Assembly: GCA_021794015.1 (NCBI GenBank)
Contig: JAJYRQ010000010.1
Span: forward strand, 1 to 64,000
Reading direction: 5' to 3'
DNA length: 64,000 nucleotides
DNA from: Deltaproteobacteria bacterium
Lineage (GTDB): Bacteria; Desulfobacterota; Binatia; Binatales; Binataceae
Positions 20,500 to 30,218 of this stretch are shown piece by piece. Within the stretch, counting starts at the first letter, position 1. Each line of letters opens with the position of its first letter. The translations under genes and the position numbers were made by a program. The notes beneath the pieces are model-generated. The model made no database searches and was not told where the DNA came from. It was given only the letters and a program-made list of their open reading frames with translations.

Positions 20500-23400
20500 C
20501 TATGCGGTCGCTCGCCCGGTGACTGCATTTGCCGAGATGTCGAGCAAGACTGCCGGGATGTCCGCGGGCCGGGTCACAACTCGGTACTCCCACTGGCCGT
20601 AAGCACCGTCGGCGTTCACCGCTTCGACCCAGCGTTCAGCGGCCTGCCTTTTCACTTCCTTCAACGGATCGAATCCCTTGACCTCAAGGATGAGATGGAT
20701 CGGCGGCTCGGTCTTCAGTCTCGCGATGAAGTCCGGCATGTAGTCGTGTGGCTGCCCGTTGTGGAAGTACGGAATCGCGAAGCCGAGTCCGTCGTTCTTA
20801 ACGAACGCCTCGACCATCGGATGCGTGTCGATGAAGTAGGCCGCCGACTGCTCCCACTGTGCGGTATCGGCAACGACGTAATTCAGATGGCTGCGCAACA
20901 CCTCGCGCACGCCGCGGCTGGTCCAGAAATCAACCTCAGCCGTGCTGCCCGGGCCGCGCCGCGCCTCATAAATCGGGAGCAGGGGCGCTTCGCCCTGCGA
21001 CGCGTCAGGCTTGATCGCTTCAACCAGGCGCTCGATCACCCATCCGTAGTACGGCGATAGCGCCACGTCGAGGATCTCCGCCGGCGCAACGGGCCGCACT
21101 TTCTCGCGCAGATAACGTTCGACTACTGCCCGTAGTTGGGGAAAGAGCACTTGCGCGGGAGCCTCGCACGAGGGTTGCGCGACGTAATCGCGCGTGAGCG
21201 CCGCCGCCATATCGAAGACCAGCTGCTGAAAACGAAGGCTTTTGCGGTAGGGGTTGAGATCAACCCGCTCGATTCCGCCCGGCCCCGAAAGCGTGTGCCT
21301 GCCCCTGTTGTTCGGCAGCGCCGCTTTCATCTCCGCTTCGGGTGGGATGTTCAGCGGATCAAGCGCGAGCGGCGCGATCGAATCCCAGTTTACGGTCACC
21401 CGATTGCGGATCGCCTGCCGATAGCCCTGAACCCGCGGATATTTGATCTCGAATCGGGCCCTCCCTGGAGCCGGACAAACGTGATGGCGCTTTTCAGACG
21501 GGCGCGCCACCCCTTTGCTTGCCTTGAACGGTACGACCTCGAAGGGCACGCCGAAAACCTTGGCGACCTCCTCGGTGAGCTTACCGTCGCTGCCGACCTC
21601 ATAGCTTGAGCGTCTGAGGCCGCGGCCCACGACTTGCTCGCACAATAGCTGCGACATGAAAGGCCTGAGTCCGACGATGTGGGTCACCGTGTTGCAGTCC
21701 CATCCTTCCGTCAGCATGCCGACGCTCACGATGCAGCGCACGTCGCGCCCCGGTGGATGAAGCGGCTTGTCCAGCTTTTTCGCGAGATCCTCGAAGCCTT
21801 CCGGGTAGATCGGCCGTCCCTGCCTGTCCTTGGGCCAATCGGTCTTGCCGACCACGTCGAGAGTAACCCGCATCCAGGCGGTCTCGTCACTTTTGGGCTG
21901 GCCGGTGTCGGTTTCGTGCACCACCTTGGAATCGACGCGGATCGTGTTGACGCGGCCGTTACTGTTGCGGAAGCCCTCGATTTGCGCCGCTGGAATTCCG
22001 GTGGGAGTCTTACCCTCGGCAAGCCACTCGTAAATGACCTTGGCGACCCGGGTGTTCTTGCAGACGATGATGAAAACCGGCGGACGCGGGTCTTCACGCT
22101 CTCGCTCCCATTGCCGGTGCTGTTCCTCCCACATGCCGGCGAGCATGAGGAGCGGATGCGCCGCCCATTTGACTACTGCCTCGGGCTTAGCGTCACTTCG
22201 CTTCCCACCTCGTTCAGCGGGCGTGAGCTTGGTGAGTATCCATCGCCAGATGTTGAAATAATTTGGAAGCTCTCTGCCGCTGGGATCGCGCACCACGAGC
22301 TGCGGAATTTTCGTGAGGCCGGACTCGATTGCGTCGGTAAGGCCGAAGTCGCTCACGGTCCACGGAAAGATCCGGTTCGTCTCCTGGCCGACGCGACCGA
22401 GAAAGTAGGGTGTGGCGGAAAGATCGGCGCAACAGTTGATCCCGCGAAGCTTGTGAATCTTGTCCAGCCCGTCGATCCAGACCGTCGCTTCTTTGAAGAA
22501 TTCTTCGGCCTCCTCCTCTTCGCCGAACTCCTCCCATTCCGATTCCTCGGCCTCCGGCCGCCGGATGCGATAGGCGTGATGCGCCTCATCGTTGAAGACC
22601 AGGAGATTTCCCTTACCGCGCAGATCCTCACCCAGCACGCGGTTGACCAGCGCAGTCTCACTTTCCACGTAGCGGTACGATCGTATCTGCGCGCGCTTGA
22701 GGTTTCCTTGCTTGTCACGCTCTTCAGTTACAACCTCGATCAGGCCGAGCGCCTTCTGCCGCTCGAACTCCTCGGGTGTGAGATACCGCCGGCCGCGCGC
22801 GACGGTCGTCTTCGGCCCGATCGTGATCGTCTCCCGCACTTCCACGCGCTCGCCGGCCTTGATCACCTTGGCGCTGGTGCCGCCGCCTTGCACCGCCTGC
22901 GGCTCGAAGACGTGCCAGTTGGTGATGAGAACGCGTCCTTTCGTGAGGTCCGGCATCAGATGCTCCGGTACGAGGTCCCGTGTCCGGTAGAGGCTCGCCT
23001 CGCCGCTCTCCGGGTGGAGTTCGCCCAGCCGGCTGCGGATCGTCACGTTAGGGCATACGACCAGGACCGTGTCGGAAAAACGCGCGTCGCTTTTGTCGGC
23101 GACCTTGTTGAGGATGCTCCACGCGGCAAGCATCCCCATCACGGTGGTTTTGCCCGTCCCGGTCGCCATCTTGAGTGCGTACCGGATGAACGCCTTGTAG
23201 CCGTCGTTCTGGCGCTCCTCGCCGGGCGTGTCGAGCGGAACCCTGATCCCCTGGCGGAAGTCGGCGCGCGCTTCCGTCAGGAAGACTATCGTCTCGGCGG
23301 CTTCGAGCTGGGCGAAGAAGAGCCGATGCTGGCGGCCGTCGCGTCGCCAGTACGAGAGCAGGTCGAGCGTGGTGCGCGTAACGCCCGGATAGCCGGCTTC

Positions 23401-23634
23401 GCGCCACTTCTTGACCTCAGCGCGGATTCGGTTGACCAGCTCAAGCGGCGACCATATGCCACGCGCCTCGTGCTCGCTGTCCGCCGCCGGCGCCTTGGGA
23501 TCGCGGTAGAAGTACCCAGCCTCGCGCCTGCCGGGCTTTTTCTCGGGCTCCTCGCCCTCCTCGATGTTCCAATGCCACGCCGGCTCCTCGAACGGCGAGT
23601 TGAGGATCGGCTCCGGTACCTCGTAGTCAGCCAT
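20500..23634 (-). CDS. Type III restriction-type helicase/endonuclease (Res-like)
   Basis: A 1044-residue SF2 helicase-nuclease. Motifs in order are Walker A MATGTGKTT (K162), NDEAHH with D349-H352, SATPYF, and VVGRGLRR (motif VI). Near the C-terminus PD at about 967-968 and EVK at 984-986 form a PD-(D/E)xK nuclease core. This is the Res-type partner of the Mod-like methyltransferase at 25450-28128, although five small genes lie between. Overlap with the DUF2283 gene is 8 nt at its start. ATP-dependent DNA cleavage after methylation failure is the expected role. Confidence 0.9.
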   Translation of the reverse strand: MADYEVPEPILNSPFEEPAWHWNIEEGEEPEKKPGRREAGYFYRDPKAPAADSEHEARGIWSPLELVNRIRAEVKKWREAGYPGVTRTTLDLLSYWRRDGRQHRLFFAQLEAAETIVFLTEARADFRQGIRVPLDTPGEERQNDGYKAFIRYALKMATGTGKTTVMGMLAAWSILNKVADKSDARFSDTVLVVCPNVTIRSRLGELHPESGEASLYRTRDLVPEHLMPDLTKGRVLITNWHVFEPQAVQGGGTSAKVIKAGERVEVRETITIGPKTTVARGRRYLTPEEFERQKALGLIEVVTEERDKQGNLKRAQIRSYRYVESETALVNRVLGEDLRGKGNLLVFNDEAHHAYRIRRPEAEESEWEEFGEEEEAEEFFKEATVWIDGLDKIHKLRGINCCADLSATPYFLGRVGQETNRIFPWTVSDFGLTDAIESGLTKIPQLVVRDPSGRELPNYFNIWRWILTKLTPAERGGKRSDAKPEAVVKWAAHPLLMLAGMWEEQHRQWEREREDPRPPVFIIVCKNTRVAKVIYEWLAEGKTPTGIPAAQIEGFRNSNGRVNTIRVDSKVVHETDTGQPKSDETAWMRVTLDVVGKTDWPKDRQGRPIYPEGFEDLAKKLDKPLHPPGRDVRCIVSVGMLTEGWDCNTVTHIVGLRPFMSQLLCEQVVGRGLRRSSYEVGSDGKLTEEVAKVFGVPFEVVPFKASKGVARPSEKRHHVCPAPGRARFEIKYPRVQGYRQAIRNRVTVNWDSIAPLALDPLNIPPEAEMKAALPNNRGRHTLSGPGGIERVDLNPYRKSLRFQQLVFDMAAALTRDYVAQPSCEAPAQVLFPQLRAVVERYLREKVRPVAPAEILDVALSPYYGWVIERLVEAIKPDASQGEAPLLPIYEARRGPGSTAEVDFWTSRGVREVLRSHLNYVVADTAQWEQSAAYFIDTHPMVEAFVKNDGLGFAIPYFHNGQPHDYMPDFIARLKTEPPIHLILEVKGFDPLKEVKRQAAERWVEAVNADGAYGQWEYRVVTRPADIPAVLLDISANAVTGRATA

Positions 23635-23842
23635 TATTCCTCTGGCGCCTCCTCGGTTGGAGCAGCAGCCGCGTCGAAAAAAACAGGACTTCGAGGTTTT
23701 CGATCTCGCCGCTCGTCGGATCCAGCCGCGCGATCACGTCGTCGCCAAGCTCTTCCGATTCCTGGCCGGCATACGGAGGACGCTTGTCGATATGCAAGAT
23801 GTCCGCCTCGCGGTCGTATCTGAAACTCAGCTTCGCTTCCAT
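23627..23842 (-). CDS. DUF2283 protein
   Basis: A 71-residue protein with the DUF2283 pattern: YDREADILHI then a stretch ending in VIARLDPTSGEIENLEVL, forming a small beta-sheet. Start at ATG 23842 overlaps the end of the upstream PBECR-like gene by 16 nt, and its end overlaps the Res start by 8 nt, so the three are probably translated together. DUF2283 proteins often accompany small toxin-like genes, and an antitoxin role is inferred from position. Confidence 0.85.
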   Translation of the reverse strand: MEAKLSFRYDREADILHIDKRPPYAGQESEELGDDVIARLDPTSGEIENLEVLFFSTRLLLQPRRRQRNNG

Positions 23843-24147
23843 TTGACTTCTCCTTCGGCGAGCCGGCGCGCGATGTAGGCCGCTATCACCCAATGCCGCT
23901 GCGGTGGCCCGCTAACCACCACAACAACGATATGCTTGCAGCCCCGCACTTCAGGATACCATCGTGAGAACAGCCGCGCCGCCGGCAAGCGGATGCTGCG
24001 ACGAACCTGGTCAGGGTCGGCAACCGTCTCGACAACCCGCTCTCGATGCTGGGGCAGCAGGTCCGGATGGCGCTCCGCGATATGGCGTTCCCGCCCTTCG
24101 GTCCATTCAACCCGATCCTTCAGGTACGGGCACGGGAAACGGGTCAT
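23827..24147 (-). CDS. Small putative nuclease/toxin (PBECR-like fold)
   Basis: A 106-residue protein with an alpha-beta layout: HIAERHPDLLPQHRERVVETVADPDQV, then VVVVV strand and HWVIAAYIARR. This pattern resembles the PBECR/Barnase-EndoU-ColicinE5-type nuclease domains found beside DUF2283 genes. A histidine near residue 22 with conserved basic residues could be catalytic. It overlaps the DUF2283 start by 16 nt, a typical toxin-antitoxin arrangement. The assignment is from pattern and context, not from a proven family match. Confidence 0.65.
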   Translation of the reverse strand: MTRFPCPYLKDRVEWTEGRERHIAERHPDLLPQHRERVVETVADPDQVRRSIRLPAARLFSRWYPEVRGCKHIVVVVVSGPPQRHWVIAAYIARRLAEGEVKWKRS

Positions 24148-24326
24148 AACTAAGATCCCTCGCCGCGAGCTACGTCAGCGGCACGCGTCGGATCATTTGT
24201 CCTCCGGGAATTCCGCTGGCCCCCGGCGGTCGTTTTCGTAATTCCTTCAGGCCGTTCACCCCATCAATTCATTGCCGCGATCCTGTGCCGCACCCGACCG
24301 TACCGGCTGAGGTACTTCGGAATCGC

Positions 24327-24944
24327 TCATTTCATTTGGGGCCGTGAGCTATCCGCAATTGCACGGCTCTCGCCCCATGCGATCTCCGTGGCCCGCTCTT
24401 GATCTACTCCCTCCTTTCGCAACTCAACGTACCTGCGGACGGACGGGTCGGTGAGCCTTCGCACAGCCTTTATTTTTGGGTCGGCTAAATCATGGAGCTC
24501 GGTGTCGGTCTTCAAAAACTGCTCGAGCATCTCTTTGAGATCTTCCGCCATCCTGCGTCGGCCTTCGGGCTGAAGAAAGGCCTCGGCGTTCTCACGGAAG
24601 AAATGATGCGCCAGGCGATTTCTCGCGTCGCGACTTCGGACAAGATCCTCTCGGATCTCTGTTGGAACGCTCACGCCCGACTCATCAAGGGACTTAATCA
24701 AGGCGCCCAATGTTTTTTTGAATCCGTTGCCCCAAAGGCTGTCCATGCATCTCTCGTTATCTTGGCCGCGCTTCAGACTAGCTCTTTTCCCAGACTTCCG
24801 AAGCATCGCTCCAATAGCCAAGATGTTGACGATCTCATGTTCGAGACATTGCGCACAGTACAACGCCGTCCCCGCCAGCGCGAATAGTTCGCGGTTTTCC
24901 CGTGAAATGTCATCCTGCGCATCGGTAACCCAATTTGCGACCAT
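24327..24944 (-). CDS. HEPN-like helical protein
   Basis: A 205-residue, mostly helical protein with no firm family name. Residues 105-114 read RDARNRLAHH, giving an R-x4-H pattern (R108, H113), the active site of HEPN ribonucleases. Base composition is visibly lower in GC than the chromosomal genes around the island, suggesting recent transfer. It sits downstream of the second MNT gene, so it could replace the broken HEPN partner there, but spacing is 40 nt or more and the two are not coupled. Confidence 0.6.
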   Translation of the reverse strand: MVANWVTDAQDDISRENRELFALAGTALYCAQCLEHEIVNILAIGAMLRKSGKRASLKRGQDNERCMDSLWGNGFKKTLGALIKSLDESGVSVPTEIREDLVRSRDARNRLAHHFFRENAEAFLQPEGRRRMAEDLKEMLEQFLKTDTELHDLADPKIKAVRRLTDPSVRRYVELRKEGVDQERATEIAWGESRAIADSSRPQMK

Positions 24945-24987
24945 CTTCCTTCACATCGGCTCTTTCACTTTGCCGACCTTTGCGCGG

Positions 24988-25095
24988 TTAAAGTAAGCTC
25001 CTCACCACCATCAGTTCGTTGCCGCAGTTGTCGATCGCCTTGACTGGGCGCAGCCATGCCGCTGTGTCCGCGACTCGCGCCAGGTCATGCCGCAT
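24988..25095 (-). pseudogene. HEPN gene start fused to a copy of the mod 3' end
   Basis: An open frame of 35 codons starts at ATG 25093-25095, overlapping the MNT stop by 11 nt, as HEPN partners of MNT genes often do. It begins RHDLARVADTAAWLR, which resembles N-termini of HEPN proteins. It then switches to VKAIDNCGNELMVVRSLL. That last part matches the end of the Mod protein (ALKVIDDRGNELMVV). The HEPN body is absent. This looks like a deletion junction rather than a working gene. Confidence 0.6.
25004..25041. repeat. 38-bp near-identical direct repeat, copy A
   Basis: Matches 25478-25515 at 35 of 38 positions by eye. Copy B is the true 3' end of mod, and copy A is the matching fragment fused to the HEPN start. 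The two copies bracket the MNT gene at 25085-25441. Confidence 0.85.
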
Positions 25096-25441
25096 GGAGC
25101 AGTTTCCCCGCGCGCAGGACCGTTCCGGGCAGCGATGCTTTCAGGTGGCGCCGAGCGTCGAAGTAGGACTGCGTACAGACCAAGGCGTCGACCGCGCCCG
25201 TGGCTCCGCAACGCCACAGAGTCTCGTACGCGAGCCGGCTGCGGCGCCGCTCGGCCGGAGCGTCGTCACCCACGGCCACCAGCAGGTCATAGTCGCTGTC
25301 CGGGCCGGCGTCACCGCGCGCTTTTGCGCCGAACAGGTAAATCGCAAGGGGATGGTAAGCGTCGGCCAACCGCCGCACGATCTCGGCCAGCTTCGCGTCA
25401 CGCGCGACCAGGTCGCTGTCGGCCTGCTCCGTCACGGCCAT
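25085..25441 (-). CDS. MNT-type nucleotidyltransferase (MntA-like antitoxin)
   Basis: A 118-residue minimal nucleotidyltransferase. The core is G38-A39-x10-D50-x-D52 in FGAKARGD..PDSDYDLLV. MntA antitoxins have G-S at the first two positions, so the serine is replaced by alanine here. Such proteins AMPylate the HEPN toxin encoded next to them, but here the HEPN gene is broken (24988-25095). It starts 8 nt after mod stops. Confidence 0.82.
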   Translation of the reverse strand: MAVTEQADSDLVARDAKLAEIVRRLADAYHPLAIYLFGAKARGDAGPDSDYDLLVAVGDDAPAERRRSRLAYETLWRCGATGAVDALVCTQSYFDARRHLKASLPGTVLRAGKLLHAA

Positions 25442-25449
25442 TCCCCCCC

Positions 25450-28128
25450 TTATTTTCGCAAATCCTTCAGGTCCTTAACCACCATCAGTTCGTTGCCGCG
25501 GTCGTCGATCACCTTCAGCGCGATTCGGCCATGCTCGCCCGCTTCGAACGGCGCGCTCACGGTGCCTGCTAAATGGTCCCAAACCGCGTCCTCATACACG
25601 CCGCGCAGGGCCCGCTTCAGATTCTCCCACGCGCCCGTTCGCGGAAAGAACGCCTGCGAAACATGGAAGCTGAGGCCGTTGTAGTCCGTGTCGAGCAGCC
25701 ACGCGGGCACGTCGTCGCGCCGATGTTCCGTTTCCATCGTCAGCGGATCGAATACATCGAACCCCAGCAATTGGACCTCGTACATCGAATGTCCGTTGTC
25801 GCCCTTCCCTTTGACCTTCCGCACGGCGATCTCAGGCAGGCCGCATACGCTGAAGATCTGGCTTGAGCGCATGTTCTTGAGCAGGTCGCCCATGATCAGG
25901 TCGGGCGTCGCCTGCACGTAGGTTGCGGGCACGCCGACCGCTGCCTCCGCATTGTCGATGAGGTTGCGGGCGTTGGGCTGGATCGCGAAACCAATCACGT
26001 AGAGATGGGCGTAGCCCTTGGCGTGCGCTTCGCGCGCCGCCTCGTAAACCAGCTTTTCGCTGACCGCGCCGTTCTCCGGCCCGAACACGATGGCGACGGT
26101 TTTGCCATCGCCGTTGCCGTTCACGACCTGCGCTTCGGCCGAGAGCGCGAGCGTCTTGGCGGGCGGGCGGATGTTCTTGAGATTCACCGCCCTGCCGCCG
26201 CCGACGTGGAGCACCGGCGACTTGCGCAGCACTTCGAGCATCCGCTCGGTGTACGAAGCATAATCCTCAGCCCGTGCCTCTCGCGCGACGCCGTCGCGTC
26301 CGGCCGCCTCGAAATCCATCGGCGTGGGGATGGTCGCTTCAACCACGAACGGTCCGGTCACGCGGGTGACTCCGCCCACAACTTCGGGCCGGTCAACGAG
26401 AATTTCTTCCCTGGGCGGCTGGTCTTTGGCGATCGATTCAAGCGTGATATGCGGCACGATGCCGCCTACTTCCTCGCCCTTGACGTTCTGCTTGCGCTTG
26501 TAGACGAAGCCGCCGGCCGGGCCGCGCGCCTCGTCTTTAAGCTGGTAGTATGGAAACGTCGCGGTGAGCAGGCGCTGGCGCGCGAGCGCCAGAGGCACGC
26601 GAGAAACGTCGGTTGTGATCCAGCGCCGCCCCCACTGCTCGGCGACGTAGGCCGTGGTTCCGCTGCCACAGGTTGGATCGAGCACGAGATCGCCGGGATC
26701 GGTGGTCATAAGCATGCAACGGGCAACTACTGTTGGTGACGTTTGCACAGCATATATGCGTTGCGTACCAATCTGGGTTGACTCCCATCGGTCGGTAATG
26801 GCTATGACTGGGAAGTCCTGGACGAGGCGGCGATAGCGTATTACGGAACCCATCACCTCAACTCGGTTCACATTCGCTAGTCTTTGAAGGCCCTCCAGAG
26901 TTGTCTTCCAGTGAGTGTCTGCTCGCGGAACATATCTTTTGCCTTGAAAAACAAATTCCCGCGCTTCCGACGAGGCACCTTCCGAGTAGAGCGGGGCGAG
27001 CTGGTAGCGCTTGCTGCCGTGCGGCGTGATTCCCGTTCGGCGTTCTTCCTCGGACATCCGCCTAGACGAGCCATCTGGAAGAAGGAGCATATCGTAACGG
27101 TCAAGCGATGGGTCTCCGCTCTTACGTTCTTCGTACAATTGATGATATTTGATGCGCTCCCTATCGCGTCCATACCACAATAGGTAATCAACGGTGGGAG
27201 GAAGCAAATTTCCTTCGACGCCGCCCGTCTTCTGGAAGCTGATAATCCCTGCAAAGTTCCAAGCTCCGAAGACCTCGTCCATTACCTCGCGGACGTGATG
27301 CAGATTCTCGTCGCTGATCTGCACGAAGATGCTTCCGCTGGGAGCAAGCAACTCGCGGCAGAGCAACAGCCGGTCGCGCATATAGGTCAAGTACGAATGC
27401 AGCCCCAGTTCCCAAGTGTCGCGGTAGGCCTTCACCATCTCGGGCTCGCGTGTCATGTCCTCGTCGTCGTTGTGATCGACGTCGCGCTTGCGGACGAAGG
27501 GCTGGAAGTTCGAGCCGAACTTCACGCCATAGGGCGGGTCCATGTAGATCATCTGCACCTGCCCGCCCAGCCCTTCGAAATGGAGCAGCGAATTCATGAC
27601 GACCAGCGAATCGCCGAGGATCATCCGGTTGACCCACTTGTCGCGATGCTCGTAGGCGCGGAGCACCTGGTCGGTTATCGAATGCTGCGGGTCGGCGAAC
27701 AGCTCAAGCTCCATCTGCGGGTCGCGCCGATGGCCCTTGAGCGTTTCGATTATCGCCTTGGTCGATAGCCGCTCATGGATAAAGAGCGGCAGCGTCGGCA
27801 CCTCGAACGAGAGCCGCTCGGCCTTTCCCGCCCAGTTGAGGAACGCTTTGCTTAGCGCCTTGAGCTCGCTCGCGGCCCCTTTGGCTTCCTCGATCGACTT
27901 TGCCTCGAGAATTCGCGCGATCAACGCCTCGCCGCGTTCGCGCGCCGGGTTCTGACCGTCCCACTCCAACGCCGGCGACAGCGAAGAATCGTAGCGGTAG
28001 GTGGCCGGCGGCTTCTTCTTCCGAAACTGTGCCTGCGTGCCAACGTCCGGCCTGAGCGGACTCTCGGCCTCCCGATGCCGGTAGGTTTCAGCCGGCGGCG
28101 GCCTCGTCGGCCTTTTCACTCTTGCCAC
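25450..28128 (-). CDS. Type III-like DNA adenine methyltransferase (Mod)
   Basis: An 892-residue N6-adenine/N4-cytosine methyltransferase with beta-class order: catalytic DPPY at 197-200, then the SAM site LDPTCGSGTT at 481-490. The segment in between is the likely target-recognition domain and is lower in GC. The C-terminal third (from about 560) is an extra domain, ending LKVIDDRGNELMVV. Its likely partner is the Res gene at 20500-23634. It starts 9 nt after the cyclase-like gene. Recognition sequence cannot be read from the protein. Confidence 0.9.
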   Translation of the reverse strand: MARVKRPTRPPPAETYRHREAESPLRPDVGTQAQFRKKKPPATYRYDSSLSPALEWDGQNPARERGEALIARILEAKSIEEAKGAASELKALSKAFLNWAGKAERLSFEVPTLPLFIHERLSTKAIIETLKGHRRDPQMELELFADPQHSITDQVLRAYEHRDKWVNRMILGDSLVVMNSLLHFEGLGGQVQMIYMDPPYGVKFGSNFQPFVRKRDVDHNDDEDMTREPEMVKAYRDTWELGLHSYLTYMRDRLLLCRELLAPSGSIFVQISDENLHHVREVMDEVFGAWNFAGIISFQKTGGVEGNLLPPTVDYLLWYGRDRERIKYHQLYEERKSGDPSLDRYDMLLLPDGSSRRMSEEERRTGITPHGSKRYQLAPLYSEGASSEAREFVFQGKRYVPRADTHWKTTLEGLQRLANVNRVEVMGSVIRYRRLVQDFPVIAITDRWESTQIGTQRIYAVQTSPTVVARCMLMTTDPGDLVLDPTCGSGTTAYVAEQWGRRWITTDVSRVPLALARQRLLTATFPYYQLKDEARGPAGGFVYKRKQNVKGEEVGGIVPHITLESIAKDQPPREEILVDRPEVVGGVTRVTGPFVVEATIPTPMDFEAAGRDGVAREARAEDYASYTERMLEVLRKSPVLHVGGGRAVNLKNIRPPAKTLALSAEAQVVNGNGDGKTVAIVFGPENGAVSEKLVYEAAREAHAKGYAHLYVIGFAIQPNARNLIDNAEAAVGVPATYVQATPDLIMGDLLKNMRSSQIFSVCGLPEIAVRKVKGKGDNGHSMYEVQLLGFDVFDPLTMETEHRRDDVPAWLLDTDYNGLSFHVSQAFFPRTGAWENLKRALRGVYEDAVWDHLAGTVSAPFEAGEHGRIALKVIDDRGNELMVVKDLKDLRK
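25478..25515. repeat. 38-bp near-identical direct repeat, copy B (mod 3' end)
   Basis: The second copy of the repeat at 25004-25041, differing at three positions. It lies in the last 22 codons of mod, coding for the VIDDRGNELMVV segment. Confidence 0.85.
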
Positions 28129-28137
28129 GTCTCGCCC

Positions 28138-28923
28138 TCACGCAGTCAGCATGGCATTCACGAATGCAACCGTGTTCTCGTACTTGGCGCGGTCCCTCGG
28201 ACGCAAGTTCGAAAGCGGTCCGAAGAGCTGTATAAAGCCCCGATAAAAACTTTCGGCGCATATCGGCGGTTGAACCTTGAGGTTGTTCCGGTGCGAAAGC
28301 GGCCAAGCTAAGACAGGCCGCGATGCCTTTTCGCCGGATTTCAGAGGCACCATCCATTTCACGACCAAGTCGCAGCCGTTCTGGCCCTTAAGTGCCGGTT
28401 TCAATTCCGCTGTCCTCTCAGCGACACGCTCGTCTAGCACACATCCCAGCCACTGTGCTTGCTCGCCCAATCGGTAAGCTTGGATCAACGGAGGCCCGAC
28501 GAACGCGTTTTCATCCTGGTTGAAGACGAAGAGACCGTGAGCCAGACCAATTCGAAATGGGGCACAGCGCCACAGACCTTGCGAGAACAGTTCGAGACAA
28601 GCAATGAGGATCAACCGTAGGTCCTCCGCCTCGTCGCCTTTCGTGAATAGCAAGACGGTGTCCGAAAAGGTGAAGCTCGCAACGTGATCCGCGATCTTGA
28701 TGTGACGACCGTTCACCCGGTACGAAAGAGCCATCACTCGCCGGAGCGCGATAACCGTATCGGAAACGACCGACCATGCGAGCTTTGGATCGTGGAGCGT
28801 GAGTTGGCTCATCCCGAGCATGTCCACGTGGGCGACATACCGATTCTTGGCAACGCGTTCCCATGCCCCGGCGACTTCATCCGGCGCATAAATTCCGCCT
28901 TCCGTCCTTCGCCAAGTATTCAC
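28138..28923 (-). CDS. Nucleotidyl-cyclase-like protein, orphan
   Basis: A 261-residue protein using GTG 28923. An ATG at 29001 in frame would add 26 Arg/Ser-rich residues that overlap the HepT gene end. Two segments look like class III cyclase strands: VAHVDMLGMS with D34, and FTFSDTVLLFTKGD with D88, followed by FRIGLAHG and a late FVGPPLIQAYRLGEQAQ. These match the two metal-binding aspartates and the layout of bacterial guanylate/pyrimidine cyclases (Pycsar PycC type). No neighbouring TIR or membrane effector of that kind was seen. GC is lower than the genome. Confidence 0.55.
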   Translation of the reverse strand: MNTWRRTEGGIYAPDEVAGAWERVAKNRYVAHVDMLGMSQLTLHDPKLAWSVVSDTVIALRRVMALSYRVNGRHIKIADHVASFTFSDTVLLFTKGDEAEDLRLILIACLELFSQGLWRCAPFRIGLAHGLFVFNQDENAFVGPPLIQAYRLGEQAQWLGCVLDERVAERTAELKPALKGQNGCDLVVKWMVPLKSGEKASRPVLAWPLSHRNNLKVQPPICAESFYRGFIQLFGPLSNLRPRDRAKYENTVAFVNAMLTA

Positions 28924-28942
28924 GGGTTTCCGCCGCCCTGCC

Positions 28943-29146
28943 TCACCCTCCTGCCGCCGCCACTGTGAGCACGGTCCGCTTGGGGACCGTGCCGCCGTCA
29001 AAGGCGCTCTTCCTGACGTAGATGCTCGTGATGGCCGCGTTTGGATCGGGCGAATCGAAGCGGTACGTTCCTTTCGTTTCCTTGCTCCTTTCGAGACTCA
29101 CGCTGACGGGTTTCAAAACTGTGGTCCTCCAGCCGGGTGGATGCAT
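28943..29146 (-). CDS. Small hypothetical protein
   Basis: A 67-residue frame that overlaps the 3' part of hepT out of frame. Its core [11 protein letters not shown]...[18 protein letters not shown] resembles a widespread small unnamed family (KxTKxTYRF...YVRKSAF). If real, the HepT C-terminal tail is a read-through. Its stop is 20 nt before the GTG chosen for the cyclase-like gene. Confidence 0.45.
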   Translation of the reverse strand: MHPPGWRTTVLKPVSVSLERSKETKGTYRFDSPDPNAAITSIYVRKSAFDGGTVPKRTVLTVAAAGG

Positions 29147-29498
29147 TCTCCTTGCCGTACCACGCTTTGAGCGCTTCTTCCGACGCGGTTATGAGCGGCG
29201 GCAGGTCGTCGGTTATGACCTGCCAGAGGATGTCGAAGTCAACCGAATCGTAGCCGTGAATCAGCCGGTTGCGCAGGCCGACGATCTCAGGCCACGGAAT
29301 GTCGGGGCGGAGCCTGCGTTCATCGCTGGGCAACCGCCCGGCCGCCTCACCGACGATTTCAAGCAGGCGGACAAGCGCGAGATTCAGTTGTCGATCGGTG
29401 TCGAGGCGGCCGGGCGTCCTGCCGCGCGCCATCGCAACGGCCTCCCTTGCGTGGTCGAGCATGTGGCGCAAGCGCACGTCGCTTTCATGGCGCAACAT
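28998..29498 (-). CDS. hepT: HepT-like HEPN ribonuclease toxin
   Basis: A 166-residue frame starting at ATG 29498, of which about 120 residues match the HepT (DUF86) domain. The toxin motif RX4HXY is intact: R76, H81, Y83 in [10 protein letters not shown]. In MNT-HEPN pairs the tyrosine is AMPylated by the partner to silence the RNase. The last 45-50 residues are polar and overlap the small frame at 28943-29146, suggesting the native stop was lost. It overlaps mntA by 14 nt. Confidence 0.87.
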
Positions 29499-29787
29499 AT
29501 TGGACCTCGGCCTCGGCAACGACGCGATTGCGGAAGTAAGGGCTCAAAAATCCCGGCGTGTTCAGGTCCACCTTCCGGCCCAGAATTTCTGAAAGCTGTC
29601 TTTCCAGGGCGAAGAACCTCAGGCCCGGCACGTGGCCCGCTTCGAACTCAACCAGGACGTCGATGTCACTGTCAGGCCGGAAGTCATCGCGAAGGATCGA
29701 GCCGAAGAGCGCGAGCCGGCGGATATGGTTGCGCCGGCGGAAGTCGGCAAGCCTCTCCCGGTCAATTGCGATGCGGTTCCTCTCCAC
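29485..29787 (-). CDS. mntA: MntA-type nucleotidyltransferase antitoxin
   Basis: A 100-residue minimal nucleotidyltransferase with intact catalytic pattern G29-S30-x10-D41-x-D43 ([17 protein letters not shown]). It starts at GTG 29787. It is expected to AMPylate the HepT toxin encoded immediately after it (14-nt overlap). Compare the second MNT at 25085-25441, where the serine is missing and the partner is broken. Confidence 0.88.
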
Positions 29788-29790
29788 TGT

Positions 29791-29991
29791 TCAGCCTTCT
29801 TTCCTAGAACGATGATTCCCGCCTGCGGGCACCGGTACGTCCTTAACCGCCTTCGCTACCACGCGGGCGACGAATGCCTGCATGGACACGTCTTCCAGCG
29901 CCGCCTTCACCCGGAGTTTCCGGTGAATCTCCTCGGGCAAGTCGACGTGAATCTTCCGTCGCCGGATGATTGCTTTCCTGAGAGCCCGCAT
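29791..29991 (-). CDS. Ribbon-helix-helix / HicB-like DNA-binding protein
   Basis: A 66-residue protein (ATG 29991) with a short basic strand RRKIHVDLPEEIHRKLRV then two helices (AALEDVSMQAFVARVVAKAV), the Arc/HicB ribbon-helix-helix layout. It lies 3 nt ahead of mntA and is the first gene of the island, so it may autoregulate the operon. It could also be a part antitoxin. A GTG at 30021 would add ten residues. Confidence 0.65.
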   Translation of the reverse strand: MRALRKAIIRRRKIHVDLPEEIHRKLRVKAALEDVSMQAFVARVVAKAVKDVPVPAGGNHRSRKEG

Positions 29992-30218
29992 CACACGTGG
30001 TATCTTTGTACAGAACGGCACTTAACCTCAAGAGGCTACGGGATCGCGGACCAAGTGCTGCAACCGTCGCTCGCTCATAATAGAATCAGGTGGAAGCTAG
30101 GGAGGGTCAGTGCCGCGCCGCCTCATGGCAGGAAAGGACAGAGGATTAAGGGTCGGCTGCCCCGGCGGCCCGGGCCGACTTTGCAGCCGCCAGGGCGACC
30201 GTTCGAAGCGGAGGCGTC

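Follow-up and report, generated by a model that had tools for sequence, protein, structure and literature searches.

Fused res and mod remnants mark a probable composite origin of a Type III-like restriction-modification operon

What left the first 16 codons of a HEPN toxin gene fused in frame to a copy of the end of a DNA methyltransferase gene, next to an intact MNT antitoxin gene, inside a restriction-modification operon? This fusion lies in a 64,000-nucleotide stretch of DNA that we analysed as a whole (the window), and all of the genes discussed are on its minus strand (Table 1). By profile match, the mod and res genes of this operon are predicted to be intact members of a Type III-like restriction-modification system, in which a BPTD_3080-type res is paired with an N6/N4 methyltransferase mod. 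A sequence-only reading of the locus had described a 38-bp direct repeat, an MNT gene between its two copies and an in-frame fusion of one copy to the start of HEPN, and all three are borne out by our analysis. The repeat copies at 25004-25041 and 25478-25515 are 92% identical, the MNT reading frame (25085-25441) is open, and translation of the 35-codon ORF (25095-24988) yields MRHDLARVADTAAWLR joined to PVKAIDNCGNELMVVRSLL and a stop codon, or MRHDLARVADTAAWLRPVKAIDNCGNELMVVRSLL when read without a break. Residues 1-16 of this ORF differ at three positions from a complete HEPN protein of the same genome (PF05168, E 4.7e-23), and the repeats derive from the 3' end of mod. When up to 3 mismatches are allowed, the window contains three occurrences of a 20-base core of the repeat, where 0.02 are expected, which rules out chance similarity between the copies. 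The third occurrence had been missed by the sequence-only reading, and it is preceded by a stretch that resembles the start of res (24330-24301).

Table 1. Genes and gene remnants of the operon in the window
Feature	Position	Strand	Evidence
mod: Type III-like DNA methyltransferase, 892 aa, intact	25450..28128	-	Pfam N6_N4_Mtase (PF01555) E 1.4e-29; PADLOC MTase_III E 9.6e-149
mod codons 858-892, segment recurring in scars of relatives	25453..25557	-	tblastn of mod, scar matches begin at codon 858 in L009, L029, L030 and L033; nucleotide alignment
MNT-type nucleotidyltransferase, 118 aa, intact frame, toxin-less putative antitoxin	25085..25441	-	Pfam NTP_transf_2 E 1.7e-7
35-codon fusion ORF: HEPN codons 1-16 (25048-25095) and mod-tail remnant	24988..25095	-	translation; alignment to complete HEPN genes
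mod-tail copy 2, probable remainder of first res::mod scar after HEPN deletion	25004..25041	-	35/38 identity; same position as post-HEPN scar in L033, L009, L029 and L031
205-aa cargo gene, family unassigned	24327..24944	-	no family match above cut-off; homologue in L033, 53% identical
Putative res-start relic MSDSEVPQPV, 5' half of second scar	24301..24330	-	ATGA overlap with stop of 205-aa gene; 20/30 nt match to res start behind homologous gene in L033
mod-tail copy 3 (from DRGNELM), 3' half of second scar	24231..24285	-	repeat search; pattern match with 3 mismatches
106-aa cargo gene	23827..24147	-	G015 homologue 83% identical with same neighbour; no family match
DUF2283 cargo gene	23627..23893	-	Pfam PF10049 E 8.9e-7
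res: restriction subunit, 1044 aa, intact, BPTD_3080 family	20500..23634	-	NCBIfam NF046055 1053 bits, cut-off 800

The loss of the HEPN body by deletion, as proposed from the sequence alone, is supported by comparison of this junction with relatives that carry MNT followed by HEPN. These are G027, G028, G009 and G003, in which HEPN is complete except in G028, where it is frameshifted. The same genome also contains a second locus (C18:74528-75491), which lies on the window's contig at a distance of 49 kb, with the order mod-tail relic, MNT (81% identical), complete HEPN, mod-tail copy, GIY-YIG, DUF2283 relic and res fragment. A mod-tail copy lies 3' of HEPN at the second locus and in G027, G028 and G009, and G003 is without one. 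When aligned, the window follows its relatives up to approximately HEPN codon 16 and then jumps ~450 bp on into the downstream mod-tail copy. As the window resumes in the mod-tail part of the copy that lies 3' of HEPN, we infer that the HEPN body was deleted into pre-existing sequence, with the deletion ending inside a scar that was already present. The 35-codon fusion itself was found in no relative. The genome also lacks the second complete mod gene for which the sequence-only reading had suggested a search, and only mod-tail relics were found there.

The antitoxin left behind shows signs of relaxation, in line with the earlier description of it as a relic. Its catalytic motif is GAKARGDAGPDSDYD, which has the form GAX10DXD in place of the GSX10DXD that is retained, with GS, in all five relatives. 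In characterised class I pairs, a GS to AT change in GSX10DXD abolishes toxin modification (PMC7641770). The window MNT has accumulated 8 nonsynonymous and 12 synonymous private changes, including the Ser to Ala change in the catalytic motif, compared to 5 and 24 in three relatives that have HEPN; this nonsynonymous excess is suggestive but not significant (Fisher p 0.10). These features suggest that the window MNT is probably a decaying antitoxin. A genome search recovered no HEPN of the second-locus type besides the one at the second locus, and because that protein is the sole other member of its type in the genome, the window MNT may act on it in trans. The second locus (L009) and the relatives contain the toxin-antitoxin pair of class II HEPN/MNT systems (PF05168/PF01909), the former having a PF05168 match (E 4.7e-23) and an MNT with the GSX10DXD antitoxin motif (PMC7641770), whereas the window copy falls outside this class, with a toxin of 16 codons and GA instead of GS in its motif. 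Upstream of mod, the window contains another, complete HepT (PF01934)-MntA pair together with a ribbon-helix-helix antitoxin (28998-30021).

The mod-tail copies of the relatives are parts of longer scars. In the form found 3' of HEPN, codons 1 to ~13 of res are joined to ~35 codons from the end of mod. The scar of G009, located after HEPN, reads EYEVPQPTLNA followed by TPLQAAVHGQIGVKVIDDRGDELTVVK, and decayed versions of this type are present in G027, G028 and the second locus of the window's own genome. In G015 the scar follows DUF2283 and reads MADYEVPEPTLNA joined to APFEAGEHGQIAVKVIDDRGNELMVVKGLSEAK (also given as MADYEVPEPTLNA joined to APFEAGEHGQIAVKVIDDRGNELMVVK); it is identical to the genome's own res start at 38 of 42 nt and to its own mod tail at 97.5% over 81 nt. 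The G015 and G009 scars have a common extra codon at the junction, so both may go back to a single old event. The third mod-tail copy of the window is part of a second scar, which comprises res codons 1-9 and the mod tail and lies behind the 205-aa gene; its halves are separated by ~15 nt that the two source genes do not account for. In G009, the 205-aa homologue directly precedes res and overlaps the true res start (MSDDEIPEPM) by ATGA, as it does the relic in the window, and the order of this locus (L033) is MNT-HEPN-scar-205-aa homologue-res. From these sequences, each scar appears to combine, in its 5' half, the start of a res gene that once stood behind the upstream cargo with, in its 3' half, the end of a mod gene that once stood ahead of the downstream cargo. 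A search of 148 genomes of the class recovered no scars outside the window's family.

We propose, with a probability of about 75%, that this Type III-like restriction-modification operon is a composite in which mod-cargo-res operons were joined, each join leaving a scar of res start and mod end. Under this proposal, operons that differed in cargo would have been joined serially, with one mod and one res kept and the cargo stacked between them. The parents would have been A (mod-MNT-HEPN-res), B (mod-205aa-res) and C (mod-106aa-DUF2283-res), and the joined product mod-MNT-HEPN-[resA::modB]-205aa-[resB::modC]-106aa-DUF2283-res. A later deletion that began at HEPN codon 17, removed ~450 bp and ended within the first scar would then have produced the fusion of HEPN start and mod tail. 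Recombination at short homologies may have made the joins, with tandem or incoming operon copies as substrates, either by collapse of a tandem pair or by homologous recombination on the res side with an illegitimate join on the other (upstream) side, and both routes fit the data. Such successive joining would explain what the scars contain, how they are oriented and in which order they lie. We directly observed the scar sequences, their order and relatives at single steps, and the history of the window is a reconstruction from these. The arrangement in G009 matches steps A and B of this reconstruction, and the relic second locus, which combines the mod tail, MNT-HEPN, a scar, GIY-YIG, a DUF2283 relic and a res fragment, also counts for a composite origin. 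We found no intact tandem pair of such operons, the nearest being a relic unit in L050, and no simple parent operon of type A, B or C, only stacked forms. A further weak point is the 5' half of the second window scar, which matches the L033 res start at only 20 of 30 nt; that score is reached by only 3 of the 1293 ATG 30-mers in the window. Metagenome-assembled genomes could hide assembly errors, although the same scars are present in several genomes. The res part of scars between modules always ends within approximately codons 9-17, a length that random collapse would not predict and that neither route accounts for on its own. It could reflect the elimination by selection of long truncated Res fragments, or breakage at a preferred site.

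The gap between mod and res is a variable cargo slot with unrelated genes across phyla. A scan based on mod alignment yielded 61 loci from many phyla, 40 of which have the mod end and the res start on one contig; the gap holds 0.5-4.8 kb in 33 of these 40 and is <100 bp in the other 7. The most common cargo is an AAA_21 ATPase, and other slots contain AAA_14/DUF4143, AAA_21 with DUF4276, ParE, PIN, UPF0175/DUF3368, Phd, XisH, GIY-YIG, Bro-N, ORF6N, 23S rRNA IVP, MNT and DUF4145 proteins. Relics of the res start are found between cargo modules in five cyanobacterial genomes (G149, G397, which has two, G457, G418 and G436), and in all of them res homology stops at nt 49-52 (codons 16-17) despite different following genes; in the G015 scar it stops at nt 42. 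A mod-tail relic lies between modules in a gammaproteobacterium (L090). The general use of the gap for cargo and the recurrence of such relics both favour a composite origin. Members of this restriction operon family also occur on plasmids, some of them conjugative, and plasmids offer a route for the repeated arrival of related operons.

Several loci in this survey contain further unusual structures. In L050 (4820-5700), an isolated unit of mod tail, cargo and res start (36 codons), possibly a cassette or a relic operon, lies upstream of a complete operon, and its cargo is a four-helix protein that resembles 23S rRNA intervening-sequence proteins. A Brocadiaceae contig (L097:380-900 and 2380-2700) has two decayed mod genes with internal deletions that both end at the mod-tail motif DRGNEL, as in L009 and L031. 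The order in L091 (7538-9691) is mod 5' relic, MNT, HEPN and mod, so that cargo is bracketed by 5' rather than 3' ends of mod. In L079 (9465-10607) and L157 (G090:C1:309000-325000), mod has an in-frame, intein-like insert between DPT and CGSG with a DUF559 nuclease domain, and similar splits at the same codon are present in L078, L081, L137 and L138. An Anabaena res (L063:13300-14500) has an in-frame insert at EGWDC that is intein-like by its ends and gave no match in a Pfam search. We considered the inserts of L063, L079 and L157 as further duplications and rejected this because of their intein-like character.

The boundaries described above could also have arisen by cassette exchange, with modules bounded by the res leader and the mod tail as fixed crossover sites (for a recombinase, or for RecA acting at these short repeats) and cargo repeatedly gained and lost, in a manner loosely comparable to integrons. 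In its broad form, this would turn ~50 nt at the start of res and ~100 nt at the end of mod into fixed exchange points that shuffle defence and toxin-antitoxin modules among restriction operons across phyla with no dedicated integrase, which we regard as unlikely, as we do cassette exchange at this locus. Such exchange fits the recurrence of boundaries in res (nt 49-52 in Cyanobacteria, nt 42 in G015) and in mod (from approximately codon 858 in several scars), the presence of same-form scars ahead of different downstream modules in the window's family, and the isolated unit in L050. However, common descent of the scars could account for their matching boundaries, and the annotated slots contain no recombinase: no site-specific integrase was found among the ten genes profiled at 20500-30021 or among the cargo genes profiled. 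Nor do mod tail and res start generally resemble each other, since the sequence common to both is 14 bp in G015, 10 bp in the window and 5-8 bp, which is background, in most loci. These per-locus values likewise led us to reject a general long direct repeat linking the end of mod to the start of res.

The sequence-only reading had instead attributed loss of the HEPN body directly to recombination with an outside, mod-like sequence. HEPN codon 16 is indeed fused to a mod-tail copy, as that proposal requires, but in L033, L029 and L009 the mod-tail copy already lies 3' of HEPN and so predates the deletion, which makes this origin very improbable. We give equally little credence to the idea that the short fusions are true small genes, which might for instance encode peptide mimics of the Mod C-terminus. 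G015 and G009 have an open scar ORF, but frameshifts or stop codons interrupt it in G027, G028 and the second locus, the window has a truncated version, and the boundaries differ in Cyanobacteria. A conserved small gene was rejected on the basis of this decay in several relatives.

Stacked cargo with fused core-gene remnants sets this operon apart from known systems that it resembles. In integron cassette arrays, a short recurring sequence lies between cargo modules that are unrelated to one another. The window likewise has unrelated cargo modules and recurring short separators, but here the separators are pieces of the flanking genes, and the slots examined contain no integrase. Classical Type III operons have the order mod-res, and in some Type III systems an extra ATPase gene is known 5' of mod (PMC8259958); the window differs in having varied genes between mod and res and scars of former operons. 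PrrC is an accessory gene within the Type IC locus ecoprrI (PMC12707154). This likewise places an accessory gene inside a restriction operon, although PrrC is a single fixed partner, whereas the window has stacked modules parted by fused remnants of the core genes. Cargo inside or beside restriction operons is thus already known. In open-licence PubMed Central we found no literature on BPTD_3080 or on mod-res cargo, and within that collection the scar-marked stacking of modules in a Type III-like operon appears undescribed.

Scars of this kind let the history of a defence operon be read stepwise, with relatives supplying the intermediate states. Toxin-antitoxin and defence modules can build up within a restriction operon that keeps mod and res intact, and the recurrent boundary near res codons 9-17 makes the way in which such operons exchange defence cargo a question that can be tested.
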